Source: Candidatus Kryptoniota bacterium (GTDB taxonomy: Bacteria; Bacteroidota; Ignavibacteria; Kryptoniales; JAKASW01). From it: a stretch of DNA of 64,000 nt. The notes below the pieces were generated by a model. That model saw only the letters and a program-made list of their open reading frames with translations, made no database searches and had not been told where the DNA came from. The stretch is from positions 372,001-436,000 of the forward strand of contig DATCTN010000031.1 of the NCBI GenBank assembly GCA_036567965.1, written 5' to 3'. Of this stretch, positions 27,668-35,155 are shown piece by piece; within the stretch, counting starts at the first letter, position 1; each line of letters starts with the position of its first letter. The translations under genes and the position numbers were made by a program.

Positions 27668-27741
27668 AACGGAAAAATTTTTATGATGTGCAAATCGAAC
27701 TGCCGAGGGGCTGAAGCGACATGGGAGAGATGACCGCAAGG

Positions 27742-27771
27742 TTGATTTCTTAGGCAATGCGGGTTAGTTTG
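27742..27771 (+). promoter_or_regulatory. Candidate Bacteroidota-type promoter for the island
   Basis: TTG at 27742-27744 and TAGTTTG at 27765-27771, 20 bases apart, approximate the -33/-7 pattern TTTG-N19-21-TAnnTTTG, 73 bases before the first ATG of the island. The match is one base short in each box, so this is only a candidate. Confidence 0.25.
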
Positions 27772-27844
27772 ATAAAGTGGAAATGGCACTGTTTGTAACT
27801 TGGGTGACTGAAACTCAACACGTTGCAAAATTTGGGGGCGAACA

Positions 27845-29248
27845 ATGAAAACTGAAGCAACTACGACGGTGCTGGCACAAATCCTCAAGGACTCAGATTA
27901 CAATCTTTCCATCTTTGCAGACGAGGACATCAAAGGGTTGGAAGCAAAAATCACAGTAGTGAAGAGCAAACCTTATGTCGAGTGTATAATTCGTGAAAAG
28001 GATGTCCAGCTTAAGCCGGAGGAAATTGTTCGCCAGCTTTACACAATGAAGTTGATGAAGGATTATGGTTATCCTAAGAAACGCATCAGGTTTGAGCATC
28101 CCGTGCAGTTTGGAAGGGAAACAAAATCGGCTGACATTGTGGTCTTTGACAGGGACAGGCCAACTGTCGAGTATATCATCGTAGAGGTTAAAAAGCCCAA
28201 ACTCAAGGACGGAAAGGAACAGCTCCGTTCTTATTGCAACGCGACCGGGGCGCCTATTGGTGTCTGGACAAACGGCGGCCAGATTTCTCACTATAACCGC
28301 AAAGACCCCAATTTCTTCGAGGACATTACGGATATTCCCAAATCAGATCAGACTCTCCAGGATATTTTGAAGGAGCGATTCACGCTCAAGGATTTGGTGA
28401 TCCGGGACAAGATTCCTAACGAAGGGAAATCGCTCAAAGACATCATAACTGAGATGGAAGACGAGGTACTCGCGAATGCGGGCGTCGATGTGTTCGAAGA
28501 AGTGTTCAAGCTCATCTTCACAAAACTGTATGACGAATACCTCAGTCAGAAAGATAAAGCCGTCATCAACTGGAATCTAAATGGTGCTTCTGCTCCGAGG
28601 GTTTCAGAGCGCCGCCGGTCCACCAGCAGGAACAAGAACGATTCATTCGAGTCGATGAAAAAGGTCGTCGAAAGGATTGACGATACCACGTTCCGAGTGC
28701 TTGAGTTTAGAAACACAGGGCAGTCAGAAGGGGATTTGAAAAATAAGATTCAAAGACTGTTTGACGATGCGAAGCAGAAATGGCCGGGTGTATTTCCGGA
28801 CAGCAGCAAGATTGATCTCAGCCCTTCTCATCTTTCCGTTTGCGTTGCAAGTCTTCAGGACATCAAGCTGTTCAATTCAAACCTGCAGGTGATCGATGAA
28901 GCCTTCGAATATTTAGTGAGCAAATCGGCGAAGGGAGAGAAAGGCCAATACTTCACTCCGCGCCACGTGATAGACATGTGCATCAAGATGCTTAACCCGA
29001 AACCAGGTGAGTACATGATAGATTCGGCAGCTGGCTCCTGCGGGTTCACGGTACACACGATCTTCAAGATTACGGGCCATCTCTTCGACAGCAGGGATAT
29101 ATCCGAAGAGGAAAAGAAAGATGTGTTGAAGGTGTTCGGGATCGATTTTGACGAAAAAGTCGTGCGTGTTGCCAGGACGCTGAACCTGATAGCCGGCGAC
29201 GGCGAGACGAACGTTCTTCACCTCAACTCTCTCGACTACGACAGGTGA
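27845..29248 (+). CDS. N-terminal fragment: PD-(D/E)xK nuclease domain plus SAM-binding half of methyltransferase
   Basis: 467 residues. Residues about 55-165 form an HsdR_N-like nuclease domain with Asp97 (SADIVVF), Glu114 and Lys116 (VEVKKPK). A helical HsdM_N-like region follows. The methyltransferase starts near KGEKGQYFTPRHVID, and motif I is DSAAGSCGF (from residue 393). Translation stops before catalytic motif IV. The ATG at 27845 follows GGGGGCG-rich sequence that can serve as Shine-Dalgarno. Confidence 0.85.
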   Translation: MKTEATTTVLAQILKDSDYNLSIFADEDIKGLEAKITVVKSKPYVECIIREKDVQLKPEEIVRQLYTMKLMKDYGYPKKRIRFEHPVQFGRETKSADIVVFDRDRPTVEYIIVEVKKPKLKDGKEQLRSYCNATGAPIGVWTNGGQISHYNRKDPNFFEDITDIPKSDQTLQDILKERFTLKDLVIRDKIPNEGKSLKDIITEMEDEVLANAGVDVFEEVFKLIFTKLYDEYLSQKDKAVINWNLNGASAPRVSERRRSTSRNKNDSFESMKKVVERIDDTTFRVLEFRNTGQSEGDLKNKIQRLFDDAKQKWPGVFPDSSKIDLSPSHLSVCVASLQDIKLFNSNLQVIDEAFEYLVSKSAKGEKGQYFTPRHVIDMCIKMLNPKPGEYMIDSAAGSCGFTVHTIFKITGHLFDSRDISEEEKKDVLKVFGIDFDEKVVRVARTLNLIAGDGETNVLHLNSLDYDR

Positions 29249-29305
29249 AACGAGACCGTTAACAACCGCGACTGGTCGGCGACGTATGGCTCAGGGTTCA
29301 AGAGG

Positions 29306-29929
29306 TTGGAAGCGCTCAGAAAGGATCCAAGCGGATACAAAGAATTCAAGTTCGACATGCTTATGGCAAATCCACCATTTGCTGGCGACATAAAAGAATC
29401 TCGCATCATTCACAAATACGAGCTCGGCTATAATGAAAAGAATAAGCCGAAGTCGAAAGTTGGGCGCGACATCCTGTTCATCGAAAGGAACCTTGACTTG
29501 ATAAAACCAGGCGGCCGGATGGCGATAGTCCTGCCCCAGGGAAGGTTCAACAACACTTCGGACAAAGAGATAAGGGAATTCATTTCTGAACGCGCACGCA
29601 TCATCGCCGTGGTTGGCTTACATGTGAATACTTTCAAGCCTCACACAGGAACGAAGACGAGCGTTCTGTTCCTGCAGAAGTGGGACGAAAGGCTCTGCCC
29701 GAAGAAGGAAGACTACCCGATCTTCTTTGCCGTATCGGAAAAGTCCGGCAAGGATAATTCGGGTGAGTATGTCTATGTCAAGAACGGCGAAGGCAAACCC
29801 AAATTAGATCTAAACGGACACTTCATAGTGGATCATGACCTCCACGATCAGGGAGGGGAGTTGCCAAAGGGAATTGCGGAAGAGTTTGTCGAGTGGGCGA
29901 AGAAAGAAAAACTGAGCTTCTGGAAGTAA
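29306..29929 (+). CDS. C-terminal fragment: catalytic half of the N6-adenine methyltransferase
   Basis: 207 residues if translated from an in-frame TTG at 29306. It contains catalytic motif IV NPPF (29369-29380), the downstream LDLIKPGGRMAIVLPQGRF strand and the HTGTKTSVLFLQ segment typical of type I M subunits. Alone it lacks the SAM-binding motif and cannot methylate. hsdS starts three bases after its stop. Confidence 0.8.
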   Translation: MEALRKDPSGYKEFKFDMLMANPPFAGDIKESRIIHKYELGYNEKNKPKSKVGRDILFIERNLDLIKPGGRMAIVLPQGRFNNTSDKEIREFISERARIIAVVGLHVNTFKPHTGTKTSVLFLQKWDERLCPKKEDYPIFFAVSEKSGKDNSGEYVYVKNGEGKPKLDLNGHFIVDHDLHDQGGELPKGIAEEFVEWAKKEKLSFWK

Positions 29930-29932
29930 TCA

Positions 29933-31342
29933 ATGAAAGTCTCGGTTGCTCGATTTTCTGAATCCTCAAGAAATGATAGAATTGACTCTGAGTTCTTCAG
30001 GGACGATTACGTCAAAGACGTATCGATGGTCTCGGGAAAGCGGTGTGATAGTATTAGGTCGGTCGCTTCTGTTTCGGATGGGAATCACTTGAAAATCGCC
30101 GAAGAGTTTACCGACTCTCCTGGAGTAAGGTACCTGCGAGGACAGGATCTATCTACGGATATGGTATTGAGTGATAGGAACGTTGTGTTTATTCCAGACG
30201 ACTTCTTCCGTAGGCTCAAGCGTTCACACATATTTAGAAATGATATTCTGATTACAATTGTTGGGGCGAACACGGGCCTTGTTGGCCTAGTTTTCTCACC
30301 GCCGCAAAAACTCGTCGCAAGCTGTAAACTCGGAATAATCAGACCCACGAAGAGTATTCTTCCCGGCTATCTTTATTCGTTTCTCGCAGGCAGGTATGGC
30401 CAGAGCCAAGTGTTTAGGTCAATTCGCGGAGGTGGTCAGACTGGTCTGATTTTGCCGGATTTGAAGAAACTTGTGGTCGTTCGATTCGAAAAAGAGTTTG
30501 AGTGTCAGATTCACGAAGTTGCCACAAAGGCGCACTCCATGATTGCCAGTTCAACCCAAGTGTACAAGGCCGAAGAGCAACGTCTACTGAAGCTGTTAGG
30601 GTTTGCAAATTGGAGACCTCGAAAGCAACTCTCATTCGTCCGGAATTTCTCCATGTCGACTGAAGGTCATCGTATCGACGCCGAGTACTTCCAGCCAATG
30701 TACGATGAGACTCTAAGAACAATTAAGAATTACAGACACGGGTTTGGATTCGTATCGGAGTTATTCAAATCAAACAAAGCCGGTTTCAAAGTAAAACGGG
30801 ATGCACTGTATCAGTATGTGGAAATCGGCTCGGTAGATACTTCTTCAGGACAAATCGAGCCACTTTCTTTGTACGAAAAAGATTTGCCGGCAAATGCAAA
30901 AATCAAATTGAATAAAGGTGATCTGATAATTTCGAAGGTTCGCACTTATCGAGGTGCGGTTGCGATTGTCCAGAGTGACGACCTCATCGGAAGTGGAGCT
31001 TTCACTGTGTTGCAGGAGTCCAAGAAAATTAACAAAGAGACAGCTTATGTGTTTTTTAAGTCTGCTCCCATTTTAAACCTGTCTTTGAAGTATAATGCAG
31101 GCACCTCATATCCCGTTATTGACGAGACCGACATTTTAGGTTTACCGTTTCCGCTTATTCCTGTCAAGGTACAGCAAGCTATCAGGTCCAAAATTACAGA
31201 AATGTATGAAACCAGGGCACTCTCAAAGCGTCTTCTTGAGATTGCCAAGCGTGGCGTCGAGATGGCGATTGAAAAGAATGAGAAGGAGGCGGAGATGTGG
31301 ATGAATAAAGAGCTGCAGGCGATAGACAAAGGGCAACAATAG
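29933..31342 (+). CDS. hsdS: Type I-like restriction specificity subunit
   Basis: A 469-residue S subunit with two target-recognition halves. The first (about 1-225) contains RYLRGQDL, NDILITIVGANTG and GGGQTGLIL; the second (about 235-430) contains YVEIGSVD, KGDLIISKVRTYRGAVAIV and NAGTSYPVIDETDI. Each is followed by a helical spacer. The split sets the bipartite DNA target of the neighbouring nuclease-methyltransferase. The two halves are quite different in sequence, implying an asymmetric site. The start ATG is 4 bases after the methyltransferase stop. The next gene begins 2 bases after its stop. Confidence 0.9.
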   Translation: MKVSVARFSESSRNDRIDSEFFRDDYVKDVSMVSGKRCDSIRSVASVSDGNHLKIAEEFTDSPGVRYLRGQDLSTDMVLSDRNVVFIPDDFFRRLKRSHIFRNDILITIVGANTGLVGLVFSPPQKLVASCKLGIIRPTKSILPGYLYSFLAGRYGQSQVFRSIRGGGQTGLILPDLKKLVVVRFEKEFECQIHEVATKAHSMIASSTQVYKAEEQRLLKLLGFANWRPRKQLSFVRNFSMSTEGHRIDAEYFQPMYDETLRTIKNYRHGFGFVSELFKSNKAGFKVKRDALYQYVEIGSVDTSSGQIEPLSLYEKDLPANAKIKLNKGDLIISKVRTYRGAVAIVQSDDLIGSGAFTVLQESKKINKETAYVFFKSAPILNLSLKYNAGTSYPVIDETDILGLPFPLIPVKVQQAIRSKITEMYETRALSKRLLEIAKRGVEMAIEKNEKEAEMWMNKELQAIDKGQQ

Positions 31343-31344
31343 AA

Positions 31345-32202
31345 TTGCTCTACTACGGCATCAAACCTGAATCGCTCGGTCAACTCGGAGTTTTGGGTCG
31401 TCAAATATGTCAGTGTGAAGAAAGAGTTGTTGAACTGAAGGTCAAATTCCTGAGACCCTACGGAGTGGCTTATCTCGACCAGATGATGTTATACGACAAG
31501 GGTGCTCAGAGGCGGAAAAATCTCGTCTCCACTTACCCGAATGTTAATCGATACTTGAAGCAAAGCGGTTTCAAGCACCTCCATCCGAAAGCGATCTGCG
31601 ATAAGCCATTTCCCCAAGAGGACATCATCAAGGTAAAGAGGTTTAAAGGAGAACCTCTCGATGTGGAGGCTGCTGTGGTAAGGTGGTTAAGGAAGGAGGT
31701 TATCCCTTGTCTACCCACATTGTCTCCGCGCGTACACAAGCAAATCGTGGAGAACCTCTGGGAAATCGTGCATAATGGACTAAAGCACGGCCACGGAACA
31801 CATGGCGTCACTGCCGCCGGGCAATTTTATCCGAAGATGGGTTACTTTGAAATCGCATTCTATGATAGGGGATATGGCATTCCGGGTCGGGTCAGGGACT
31901 TTGGAGCTCTTGGCGGAAATAGTCCTGATTCTGATTGCATCACTTGGGCGTTAGAGAAAGGTCACTCAACCGAACCGGTCGACCAGTCGGCAGGACTGGG
32001 TTTGCATCTTTTGCGCCAATTCCTTATGCTGAACGGTGGTTTGCTTCAAATTGTGTCGGGAAACGGATACTTACAGCATTCAGGTGGGGATTTAATGCCT
32101 ATTCATACCGAGACAATGCGAAACTCTATTGACGGGACTCTCGTTAATATTCGTGTAATTTATGACGATAAACTATATAAGATGGCAGGAGAAGATTTAT
32201 GA
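31345..32202 (+). CDS. GHKL-fold ATPase (histidine-kinase-like, no HisKA)
   Basis: A 285-residue protein. An N-terminal ~120-residue region of unknown fold precedes a GHKL ATP-binding domain: N-box ENLWEIVHNGLKHG (136-149), G1 box FYDRGYGIP (172-180) and G2 box SAGLGLHLL (215-223). There is no phospho-acceptor His domain, so it resembles anti-sigma kinases of the SpoIIAB/RsbW type or MutL/Hsp90-like ATPases rather than a sensor kinase. The start is TTG at 31345, 2 bases after hsdS, with AAAGGG upstream. A 4-base ATGA overlap joins it to the STAS-like gene, so the two products are probably partners. Confidence 0.85.
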   Translation: MLYYGIKPESLGQLGVLGRQICQCEERVVELKVKFLRPYGVAYLDQMMLYDKGAQRRKNLVSTYPNVNRYLKQSGFKHLHPKAICDKPFPQEDIIKVKRFKGEPLDVEAAVVRWLRKEVIPCLPTLSPRVHKQIVENLWEIVHNGLKHGHGTHGVTAAGQFYPKMGYFEIAFYDRGYGIPGRVRDFGALGGNSPDSDCITWALEKGHSTEPVDQSAGLGLHLLRQFLMLNGGLLQIVSGNGYLQHSGGDLMPIHTETMRNSIDGTLVNIRVIYDDKLYKMAGEDL

Positions 32203-32558
32203 ACACAATACGAGTTGTTAAACTGTTCGATAATCCTGTCTTGCTCGCTCCCGAAAAGGGAGAGGAGCTTTGTACGAAGATCAAAGCTGGTCTGAAGCGT
32301 TTCGGAAATGTGAAGGTTGATTTCGCGGGGTACGAATTTATTTCGAGTGCGTTTCTCAACAGGGCATTCGGGCAGCTCTGCATCGACTTGGACCTGGATA
32401 CGGAGGAGTTTCACGAGAAGGTACAAATTATGAGTCTGAGTCAAGATGATGTTGACGACCTTGAACTTGCAATTGACAATGCGCAATTCCGCCGCAAACT
32501 TATCAAGCAGGGCGTTACAGATATAGGAGAATATTTCGCGTCACGACTTCCCGCGTAG
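32199..32558 (+). CDS. STAS-like domain protein (DUF4325 type)
   Basis: A 119-residue single-domain protein. KVDFAGYEFISSAFLNRAFG (about 39-58) resembles the central strand-turn-helix of STAS anti-anti-sigma factors, where SpoIIAA has its phosphorylatable DSSG. Here the turn is ISSA, with Ser49 and Ser50 as possible acceptors but without the Asp. The fit to DUF4325 is by pattern only. It overlaps the upstream ATPase gene by 4 bases and lies 7 bases before the PIN gene, which suggests a kinase-like ATPase/STAS switch controlling a third component. Confidence 0.75.
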   Translation: MNTIRVVKLFDNPVLLAPEKGEELCTKIKAGLKRFGNVKVDFAGYEFISSAFLNRAFGQLCIDLDLDTEEFHEKVQIMSLSQDDVDDLELAIDNAQFRRKLIKQGVTDIGEYFASRLPA

Positions 32559-32565
32559 GTGCTAC

Positions 32566-33180
32566 GTGGCGATAGTCGTGGACGGATTGAAATTGGTGGA
32601 ATCAAAGAGGAGGCTTTCCAAGGAAGCCTTTTTTGTTGATACGAATGTTGTAATAGATTTCAAAGACCCCTTTGGCAGGACAAGCATTGACCGCACCATT
32701 GAGAGACGACACGGTGAGATTTCAAGCATAGTAGGTTATCTGAAGTCATCCGGGATCAAGAGCCTAAGCACGGTCAGTGTTATCTTAGAATACTACAAGA
32801 ACATTCAAGTGGGTTTCTATAAAGTGCGAACGGGAAACGAACAATTCCAGATTCGGGACTTCAAACGACTTCGCGACAAGGATATCGATTTTATGAATGC
32901 ATGGGATCTTCAAATGAAAATGCTCAAGCGTACTTTTACGAGGAATTTCCCGGTGTACGATGGTTCACCCAACCCGGGGGAAACAGTTCTGAATTTTGCG
33001 GGCGGGAGCTTGGATTTCGGCGACCACCTTCTCTACGAGACCGTGACTGTGTCGCCTAGGAACTTATGGTGCATTTTCTCCAACGACAGTGATTTTTATT
33101 CGCTCCCCGACGAAATCTTTCTACTGACCAATAACGAGGAGATTATCAAATCAGCCGAGAAAAACGGGAAGCTTTACTGA
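32566..33180 (+). CDS. PIN-fold nuclease-like protein
   Basis: A 204-residue protein with the acidic pattern of PIN-domain ribonucleases: Asp25 in FFVDTNVVIDF, Glu75 in SVILEYYK, Asp150/Asp153 in GGSLDFGDHLL, and Asp174/Asp176 in IFSNDSDFYSLP. That would place four carboxylates around a metal site. The start is GTG at 32566, with AGGTG at 32557-32561 overlapping the STAS stop codon. No antitoxin of the usual VapB type is adjacent; instead the gene ends an ATPase-STAS pair. It may act on RNA or DNA and may be released or inhibited by the upstream switch. Confidence 0.75.
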   Translation: MAIVVDGLKLVESKRRLSKEAFFVDTNVVIDFKDPFGRTSIDRTIERRHGEISSIVGYLKSSGIKSLSTVSVILEYYKNIQVGFYKVRTGNEQFQIRDFKRLRDKDIDFMNAWDLQMKMLKRTFTRNFPVYDGSPNPGETVLNFAGGSLDFGDHLLYETVTVSPRNLWCIFSNDSDFYSLPDEIFLLTNNEEIIKSAEKNGKLY

Positions 33181-33228
33181 GAAACATGAAGAGTTGATCC
33201 TCTCTTTTCCTTCGTCTCGGTCCGGGAT

Positions 33229-34322: not shown

Positions 34323-34589
34323 TCAGCGAGAGTGCTTCTTTGGAATTGAAATCTTGATGGGTTGTTCCAGGTCCAATCTGGCGAGAATCTCCTTGACGCG
34401 AGAGCCCTTCATCTCCACATCACAGTTCCTGTATAGTATTATCGTCTTCTTTAGCGAATCGTAATACGCGGCGCAATCAGGACAGTGCTCCAGATGTTCC
34501 CTCAACTTTCTGCACGTTGGAGAGGTAAGGTCACGGTCAACCTTTTCGCACATCTCGAGGAGATATTTCTTGTGGTCGATTAATTTCAC
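34323..34589 (-). CDS. Zinc-finger anti-sigma factor (ZAS/RsrA-like)
   Basis: An 88-residue protein with a ZAS-type motif HLEHCPDC (His32-x3-Cys36-x2-Cys39), an N-terminal Cys14 at the position used by RsrA-type redox sensors, plus Cys26 and Cys55. No transmembrane segment is present, so it is a soluble anti-sigma factor. It overlaps the sigma gene by 4 bases (ATGA, 34586-34589). Thiol oxidation may release the sigma factor, by analogy with RsrA/SigR of Streptomyces. Confidence 0.85.
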   Translation of the reverse strand: MKLIDHKKYLLEMCEKVDRDLTSPTCRKLREHLEHCPDCAAYYDSLKKTIILYRNCDVEMKGSRVKEILARLDLEQPIKISIPKKHSR

Positions 34590-35155
34590 TTTGAAAAATA
34601 ACTGTTGAGTTCGTTTCTCAAAAATAATCTTGCCCGATGGAGTCTGGACTTAACTGCGGGAACCGATAATTTGAGCGATTTTCCCACCTCTTCGGTCGAA
34701 AGCCCTTCGACGTCTCTCATCACGAATACGATGCGATATTCGAGAGGAAGTTTCTGAATTGCATTGTCGAGAAATGCGCGCAGCTCCTTGTTGACGACGG
34801 CATCTTGGGGAGTCTCCCCCCAATGTGGAACCTGCAGTTCTCCTGTGCCACCGAATAAATTGCTCTCTTCAAGCGAAACGACCGGATCGTGGGATTTCTT
34901 TCGGTGCATCATGAGGCAATTGTTTGTCACGATCCTGTACAGCCATGTCGAGAATTTGGAATTTCCCGAAAAGGACTTTAGTCCCCTCCAGACATTGATG
35001 AATGTTTCCTGGAGGACTTCTTCAGCCTTCTCAGGGTCCCGGCAAATTTTGAATGAGAAACTATACACAAGCTGCTCGTACTTCTTGACCAGCTGTCCGA
35101 ATGCGCGCTTATCCCCCGCGCGGGCTAACTCAATGAGTGTCGAGTCTTCTTTCAA
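34586..35155 (-). CDS. ECF-type RNA polymerase sigma factor
   Basis: A 189-residue sigma-70 family protein with region 2 (LVKKYEQLVYSFSFKI; EEVLQETFINVWRGL; FSTWLYRIVTNNCL) and region 4 (LPLEYRIVFVMRDVEGLSTEEVG; VPAVKSRLHRAR). The linker is short, as in extracytoplasmic-function sigma factors. The start codon appears to be TTG (35155) without a strong Shine-Dalgarno. It heads the operon sigma, anti-sigma, DUF2892, disulfide oxidoreductase. Confidence 0.93.
   Translation of the reverse strand: MKEDSTLIELARAGDKRAFGQLVKKYEQLVYSFSFKICRDPEKAEEVLQETFINVWRGLKSFSGNSKFSTWLYRIVTNNCLMMHRKKSHDPVVSLEESNLFGGTGELQVPHWGETPQDAVVNKELRAFLDNAIQKLPLEYRIVFVMRDVEGLSTEEVGKSLKLSVPAVKSRLHRARLFLRNELNSYFSK

Follow-up and report, generated by a model that had tools for sequence, protein, structure and literature searches.

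VapKSC was described by Chambers et al. (EMBO J, June 2026; PMC13373217) as a by-product of work on CapK+CapS, and our literature search met the name in no other paper. The system is a three-gene operon that encodes VapK, a STAS–GHKL kinase, VapS, a STAS antitoxin, and VapC, a PIN toxin; 289 instances were reported, 36% of which have an immune gene no more than 10 kb away (PMC13373217). VapK, which is thought to be activated by single-stranded DNA (ssDNA), phosphorylates VapS, and the PIN RNase VapC is then released. Activation by ssDNA was shown for CapK and is predicted for VapK (PMC13373217). Escherichia VapC is toxic and is neutralised by VapS, whereas VapS S48E does not neutralise it, and the VapS2VapC2 complex of Escherichia has been solved as crystal structure 9z7o. 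The Escherichia operon confers about 100-fold protection against phage Bas42, and VapC D28A, VapS S48A and VapK F54A each abolish phage protection (PMC13373217).

Several other systems share parts of this design. CapK+CapS also combines a GHKL kinase that carries a STAS domain with a STAS substrate, and it is often found downstream of restriction–modification (R-M) genes (88/443), but CapK has an N-terminal HTH, CapS has a C-terminal wHTH and the outcome is transcriptional repression (PMC13373217). In SpoIIAB/SpoIIAA and RsbW/RsbV, a GHKL kinase phosphorylates a serine of a STAS protein. In VapBC, a small antitoxin gene immediately precedes the gene for a PIN-domain toxin.

Here we compare with these systems a three-gene cassette at positions 31345-33180 of the window, the whole 64,000-nucleotide stretch of DNA that was analysed. 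The cassette is very probably a vapKSC operon that operates as the published partner switch and, judged by its sequence, it is a distant but clear member of VapKSC. An earlier note on this DNA had called the triad possibly undescribed; this did not hold, as the system was named in June 2026, with the complex structure and the 289 instances given above.

The three genes at 31345-33180

All three genes lie on the forward strand. The vapK-like gene (31345-32202) starts with TTG and encodes a 285-aa protein in which a degenerate N-terminal STAS-like domain is followed by a GHKL (Bergerat) kinase domain. The vapS-like gene (32199-32558) encodes a predicted DUF4325 STAS-like antitoxin of 119 aa with a C-terminal tail at about residues 96-119, and the vapC-like gene (32566-33180) starts with GTG and encodes a putative PIN-domain ribonuclease toxin of 204 aa. 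The genes are tightly packed: vapK begins 2 bases after the end of hsdS at 31342, vapK and vapS share a 4-base ATGA overlap, and 7 bases separate vapS from vapC. The coordinates and spacing in the earlier note were exact. Promoter-like and terminator-like matches were at about chance level, and the GC content of the region is only slightly below that of its flanks.

Domain searches gave results of differing strength for the three proteins. The window ATPase matched Pfam HATPase_c with E=0.0013, by itself under the curated cut-off, and the STAS protein matched PF14213 (DUF4325) with E=1.7e-10, over its curated cut-off, bearing out the prediction of a STAS-like second product. Apart from a weak sub-threshold YtxH match, these were the only Pfam domains in the kinase and STAS proteins, and the window's genome contains one DUF4325 gene. 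The window PIN protein had no Pfam match; its assignment is supported by the 8 of 14 homologues that matched PF01850 (best E=4.9e-9). An HTH was sought by Pfam in all three cassette proteins and none was found. Neither PADLOC nor NCBIfam holds a model for the three proteins.

Conservation across 23 homologues upheld the earlier readings of the first product as a GHKL ATPase with intact boxes and of the third as PIN-like. In VapK, the N-box (E140/N144/H148, with the catalytic Asn, N144, kept in 23/23), the G1 box (174-178; D174-x-G176) and the G2 box (217-219; G217-x-G219) are kept in all 23, except that D174 is kept in 22. F35, the equivalent of F54 of VapK, a putative ssDNA-binding aromatic residue, is F or W in 21 of 23, and the remaining two (L028 and L029) carry F one alignment position off. 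Seven residues of VapC are invariant in 23/23: the catalytic acidic residues D25 (the equivalent of VapC D28), E75, D150, D153, D174 and D176, as well as N27. In VapS, position 50 is S or T in 23/23 and position 49 is S, A, I or T, making Ser50 the serine that matters; of the Ser49/Ser50 phospho-turn proposed earlier, position 50 stands as the candidate and position 49 falls away. We also observed that 22 of 23 VapC homologues retain a mid-protein lysine (K100 of the window VapC, in FKxxR), which perhaps contacts RNA.

VapBC and DISARM were tried and rejected. The arrangement of a PIN toxin and a small upstream antitoxin gene recalls VapBC, but the gene before the PIN gene encodes DUF4325, a STAS protein, rather than a VapB-type DNA-binding antitoxin, and the operon has a kinase gene besides. 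PADLOC gave a ‘DrmA’ match for 13 of 17 VapK homologues; in the one member with a listed position, this match spans only the N-terminal GHKL-like part of a 1750-position model, and we therefore did not assign DISARM.

Relationship to VapKSC

We found that family profiles connect the cassette to the solved Escherichia complex. The STAS family profile matched Escherichia VapS (9z7o_A) with E=4.7e-29, and the PIN family profile matched Escherichia VapC (9z7o_C) with E=2.5e-38. Taken singly, the window STAS protein reached only E=0.14 against the VapS structure and the window PIN protein matched no solved structure, indicating that the window belongs to a divergent sub-clade. Because the window proteins by themselves gave no significant match, their homology to VapKSC rests on intermediates and conserved residues.

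The window-clade kinase profile matched E. coli VapK with E=1e-18 and about 28% identity, with F35 paired with F54 (hhalign). The window-clade STAS profile matched E. coli VapS with E=2e-5 and about 24% identity, and the window-clade PIN profile matched E. coli VapC with E=8.5e-5, over the C-terminal third only; window VapC and E. coli VapC are about 24% identical. When residues were mapped on native E. coli vapKSC, S50 corresponded to VapS S48 and D25 to VapC D28. An in-frame ATG lies five codons 5′ of the annotated start of E. coli vapK, which makes the published numbering fit. The published domain scheme calls for an N-terminal STAS domain in VapK, and the kinase family profile agrees: its columns 29-87 matched the STAS domains of prestin (E=3.5e-4) and TM1442 (E=0.0019), although in the window VapK itself this domain is degenerate. 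The C-terminal tail of VapS, which is needed for VapC inhibition in E. coli (PMC13373217), is present in the window protein as about 24 residues whose sequence is unlike the E. coli tail.

The window cassette resembles VapKSC in gene order, domain make-up, the lack of an HTH, the equivalents of F54, S48 and D28, the PIN acidic residues, near-identical gene lengths and a frequent defence neighbourhood. It differs in position, as the window operon lies co-directionally right behind R-M genes whereas the E. coli copy is beside prophage genes. Given the weak single-protein matches, the PIN alignment confined to the last third and the dissimilar VapS tail, we filed the cassette as a divergent sub-clade member of VapKSC with a function predicted from homology. 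The earlier note had proposed a partner switch in which a GHKL kinase and a STAS protein hold or free a nuclease. This mechanism has been published for the homologous VapKSC (PMC13373217), and the three key residues are kept here; a prediction made from the DNA letters alone thus independently matches the mechanism published in June 2026.

Recurrence and co-divergence of the triad

A contig scan with the window ATPase led to two congeners (L002 and L003) that have all three genes in unchanged order, with 64-82% identity. Profiles built from the window and these two sets of sequences were searched against 296 Bacteroidota genomes, of which 16 had a kinase match and 3 a PIN match, all of the PIN-bearing genomes being kinase-positive. 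With a wider PIN profile, two more surveys gave matches in 15 of 391 genomes and 12 of 98 genomes. ORF maps around the kinase matches showed the triad in most cases, with a PIN-like third gene. A STAS gene adjoins every complete PIN-profile match with readable flanks, and nearly all have the kinase too; the exceptions that lack a full kinase are decayed copies (L087, without vapK; L088, with a truncated vapK; and L083). The kinase–STAS–PIN order is common to the window, L002, L003, L024-L026, L036, L039, L043 and others, and besides the two congeners at least 20 Bacteroidota loci carry the triad in identical order. On a Deinococcus gobiensis plasmid the triad is annotated as ATP-binding, STAS-like and PIN proteins. 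A back-translated VapS query led us to a native vapKSC operon in E. coli, where 2 of 5426 genomes have it; the copy that we located adjoins prophage tail genes in a prophage region. The three-gene order on which the earlier note based its cassette is therefore conserved in numerous Bacteroidota and, outside that group, in Deinococcus and E. coli.

The distance matrices of the kinase, STAS and PIN proteins from 23 triads were strongly correlated (Mantel r 0.88-0.94), a level reached by 0 of 2000 permutations, which indicates that the three proteins evolve as a unit. This co-divergence bears on the possibility that the locus is a transcriptional switch of the CapKS type, in which the STAS protein would be a DNA-binding repressor of downstream or upstream defence genes. 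CapKS has the same pairing of a GHKL kinase with a STAS protein, and CapK and VapK are related. We nonetheless regard such a switch as very unlikely here, because the kinase lacks an HTH, the 119-aa STAS protein lacks a wHTH, and the third gene encodes a PIN protein that co-diverges with the kinase and the STAS protein.

More distant or incomplete arrangements were also observed. Both L087 (2247-2845) and L088 (8869-9327) keep vapS and vapC, and VapC may be locked off in these copies. When viral contigs were scanned with the alignments of PIN and STAS, no relative turned up. A tblastn search of plasmids returned one Deinococcus triad and one Streptococcus kinase–STAS pair without PIN; the latter (L040, 9881-11070) adjoins lysin genes on a Streptococcus plasmid-prophage. 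Phage records contained weak kinase homologues, mainly from Streptococcus prophages, and those in Streptococcus phages (H13-H21), together with the L040 pair, appear to represent a related switch. More distant pairs of a GHKL gene and a short STAS gene without PIN occur at L032 (8698-9935) and L033 (9017-10204). By eye, the next upstream gene in L033 looks like one for an HExxH metallopeptidase, which may be a different effector.

Chromosomal site, restriction genes and proposed mechanism

The R-M genes and vapKSC together occupy a variable chromosomal site (27668-33228) between YjbQ-like and thioredoxin-like genes. The thioredoxin-like gene is kept in 13 genomes of the genus. One flank (trx-DUF2892-anti-sigma-sigma-folD-ymdB) is kept in most genus genomes compared, and the other (valS-yajQ-rfbC-yjbQ) in several. 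The site holds R-M genes and vapKSC in the window, hsdR and vapKSC in L002 and unrelated genes in others, and it is empty, with 72 bases, in congener G361 (L118). In congener G329 (L083, 9694-10276), it contains a near full-length vapS and a vapC that has lost its N-terminus, with no vapK. Loss of the kinase and truncation of the toxin with retention of the antitoxin is the decay predicted by a toxin–antitoxin model in which VapC is toxic and VapS is its antidote.

The conserved flank includes a sigma-70 family gene (34586-35155), raising the question of a SpoIIAB/SpoIIAA-type anti-sigma switch acting on that sigma factor. Family profiles of both kinase domains do resemble anti-sigma kinase and antagonist structures. 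However, the partner gene that co-diverges with the kinase and STAS genes is the PIN gene, the effector would be a nuclease rather than a sigma factor, and the kinase has a STAS-like domain of its own. Together with its neighbours, the sigma gene forms part of the conserved backbone on the opposite strand, which persists even in L118 with its empty site; these genes therefore lie outside the cassette. We consider a sigma switch highly improbable and retain the VapKSC reading.

Two R-M genes on the forward strand precede the cassette: a restriction-methylase gene with HSDR_N and N6_Mtase domains (27845-29929), and hsdS, the specificity subunit gene (29933-31342), a neighbour that lies outside VapKSC. 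The 695-codon methylase frame is interrupted by a single in-frame TGA (29246-29248); an uninterrupted homologue (L095) encodes Trp at this codon. The TGA is either a nonsense mutation or an assembly error, implying that the restriction system of the window is inactivated or misassembled; the R-M half in this genome is probably not intact. By contrast, vapKSC is intact. The R-M locus of the earlier note corresponds to these two genes, of which the methylase gene is interrupted. The methylase and S genes also match the MAD2 and MAD5 models of MADS, which we rejected because the scores, 165.7 and 126.8 of 720 bits for MAD2 (two halves) and 110 of 400 for MAD5, are far under the curated cut-offs.

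To gauge the linkage with restriction, we counted loci with readable upstream genes ourselves; in 13 of 25, at least one of the three nearest co-directional upstream genes is an R-M or DNA-methyltransferase gene. Some of the loci come from the same genus and so are not independent. For comparison, there are 4 N6_Mtase genes in the 4.1 Mb of the window's genome. The gaps between R-M genes and vapKSC are often 1-4 bases, or the genes overlap. Type I genes precede vapKSC in L002, L003, L026, L036, L037, L086 and L087. L024 has a type IIG-like enzyme there and L080 another N6_Mtase protein, while L034 carries a type III-like pair, L081 a methylase-AAA-DUF4276 set and L089 BREX-like genes. The other 12 loci have housekeeping, unannotated or other neighbours, one of them a SIR2 gene. 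In L089 (3-8040), vapKSC comes directly after BREX-like genes for DUF6079, AlbA_2/Fic-like_C and a methylase, and the last frame contains an IS200-type domain. In L079 (3459-5000), the SIR2_2 gene lies about 180 bases 5′ of vapKSC on the same strand. The R-M linkage of vapKSC in Bacteroidota is real and recurrent, but R-M genes are missing next to roughly half of the loci sampled. The link with restriction suggested in the earlier note holds as a recurrent association, qualified by these loci and by the interrupted methylase gene.

One interpretation is that, in this clade, vapKSC works as a component of restriction loci, an R-M-coupled fail-safe in which R-M activity or failure, by producing DNA ends and ssDNA, would be the main trigger of VapK. 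The presence of type I, IIG-like, III-like and BREX-like genes upstream in 13 of 25 loci, set against 4 N6_Mtase genes in 4.1 Mb, favours this interpretation, and R-M coupling has likewise been suggested for CapKS in the published discussion, where 88 of 443 follow R-M genes (PMC13373217). We find it possible but unlikely, as about half of the loci have no adjacent R-M genes, including the related L025, L028-L031 and L082, the window keeps vapKSC intact beside a methylase gene with a stop codon, and defence genes cluster anyway. The coupling is unproved; it would refine the main VapKSC reading without excluding it, and our confidences in the two overlap. We likewise find it unlikely that the R-M-linked vapKSC loci of Bacteroidota form a two-tier defence unit, in which restriction cuts would generate ssDNA and activate VapK, bringing about arrest when restriction is overwhelmed or misfires, with vapKSC as a mobile ‘second stage’ for type I, IIG and III systems.

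Our analysis established the gene order, co-conservation and homology of the window clade and showed that it keeps the residues tested in E. coli. Results from the Escherichia homologue cover VapC toxicity, neutralisation by VapS, the solved VapS2VapC2 complex and a protection against phage that is lost in the three point mutants (PMC13373217), and we infer that the divergent Bacteroidota clade works in the same way, as a toxin–antitoxin-like abortive-defence switch. In the resting cell, VapS would bind the PIN ribonuclease VapC and keep it inactive. DNA damage or phage infection would yield ssDNA, the presumed signal for the window VapK, and the active kinase would phosphorylate VapS on Ser50, causing it to release VapC. 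Freed VapC would then halt growth by cleaving RNA in the cell (probably tRNA or rRNA). The adjacent restriction system could feed the switch by making DNA ends.

These findings extend VapKSC to a divergent Bacteroidota clade that keeps the three experimentally decisive residues, and they show repeated, operon-like linkage of vapKSC to unrelated restriction systems. They also make it a testable question whether the toxin is activated when the neighbouring restriction enzyme cuts DNA.
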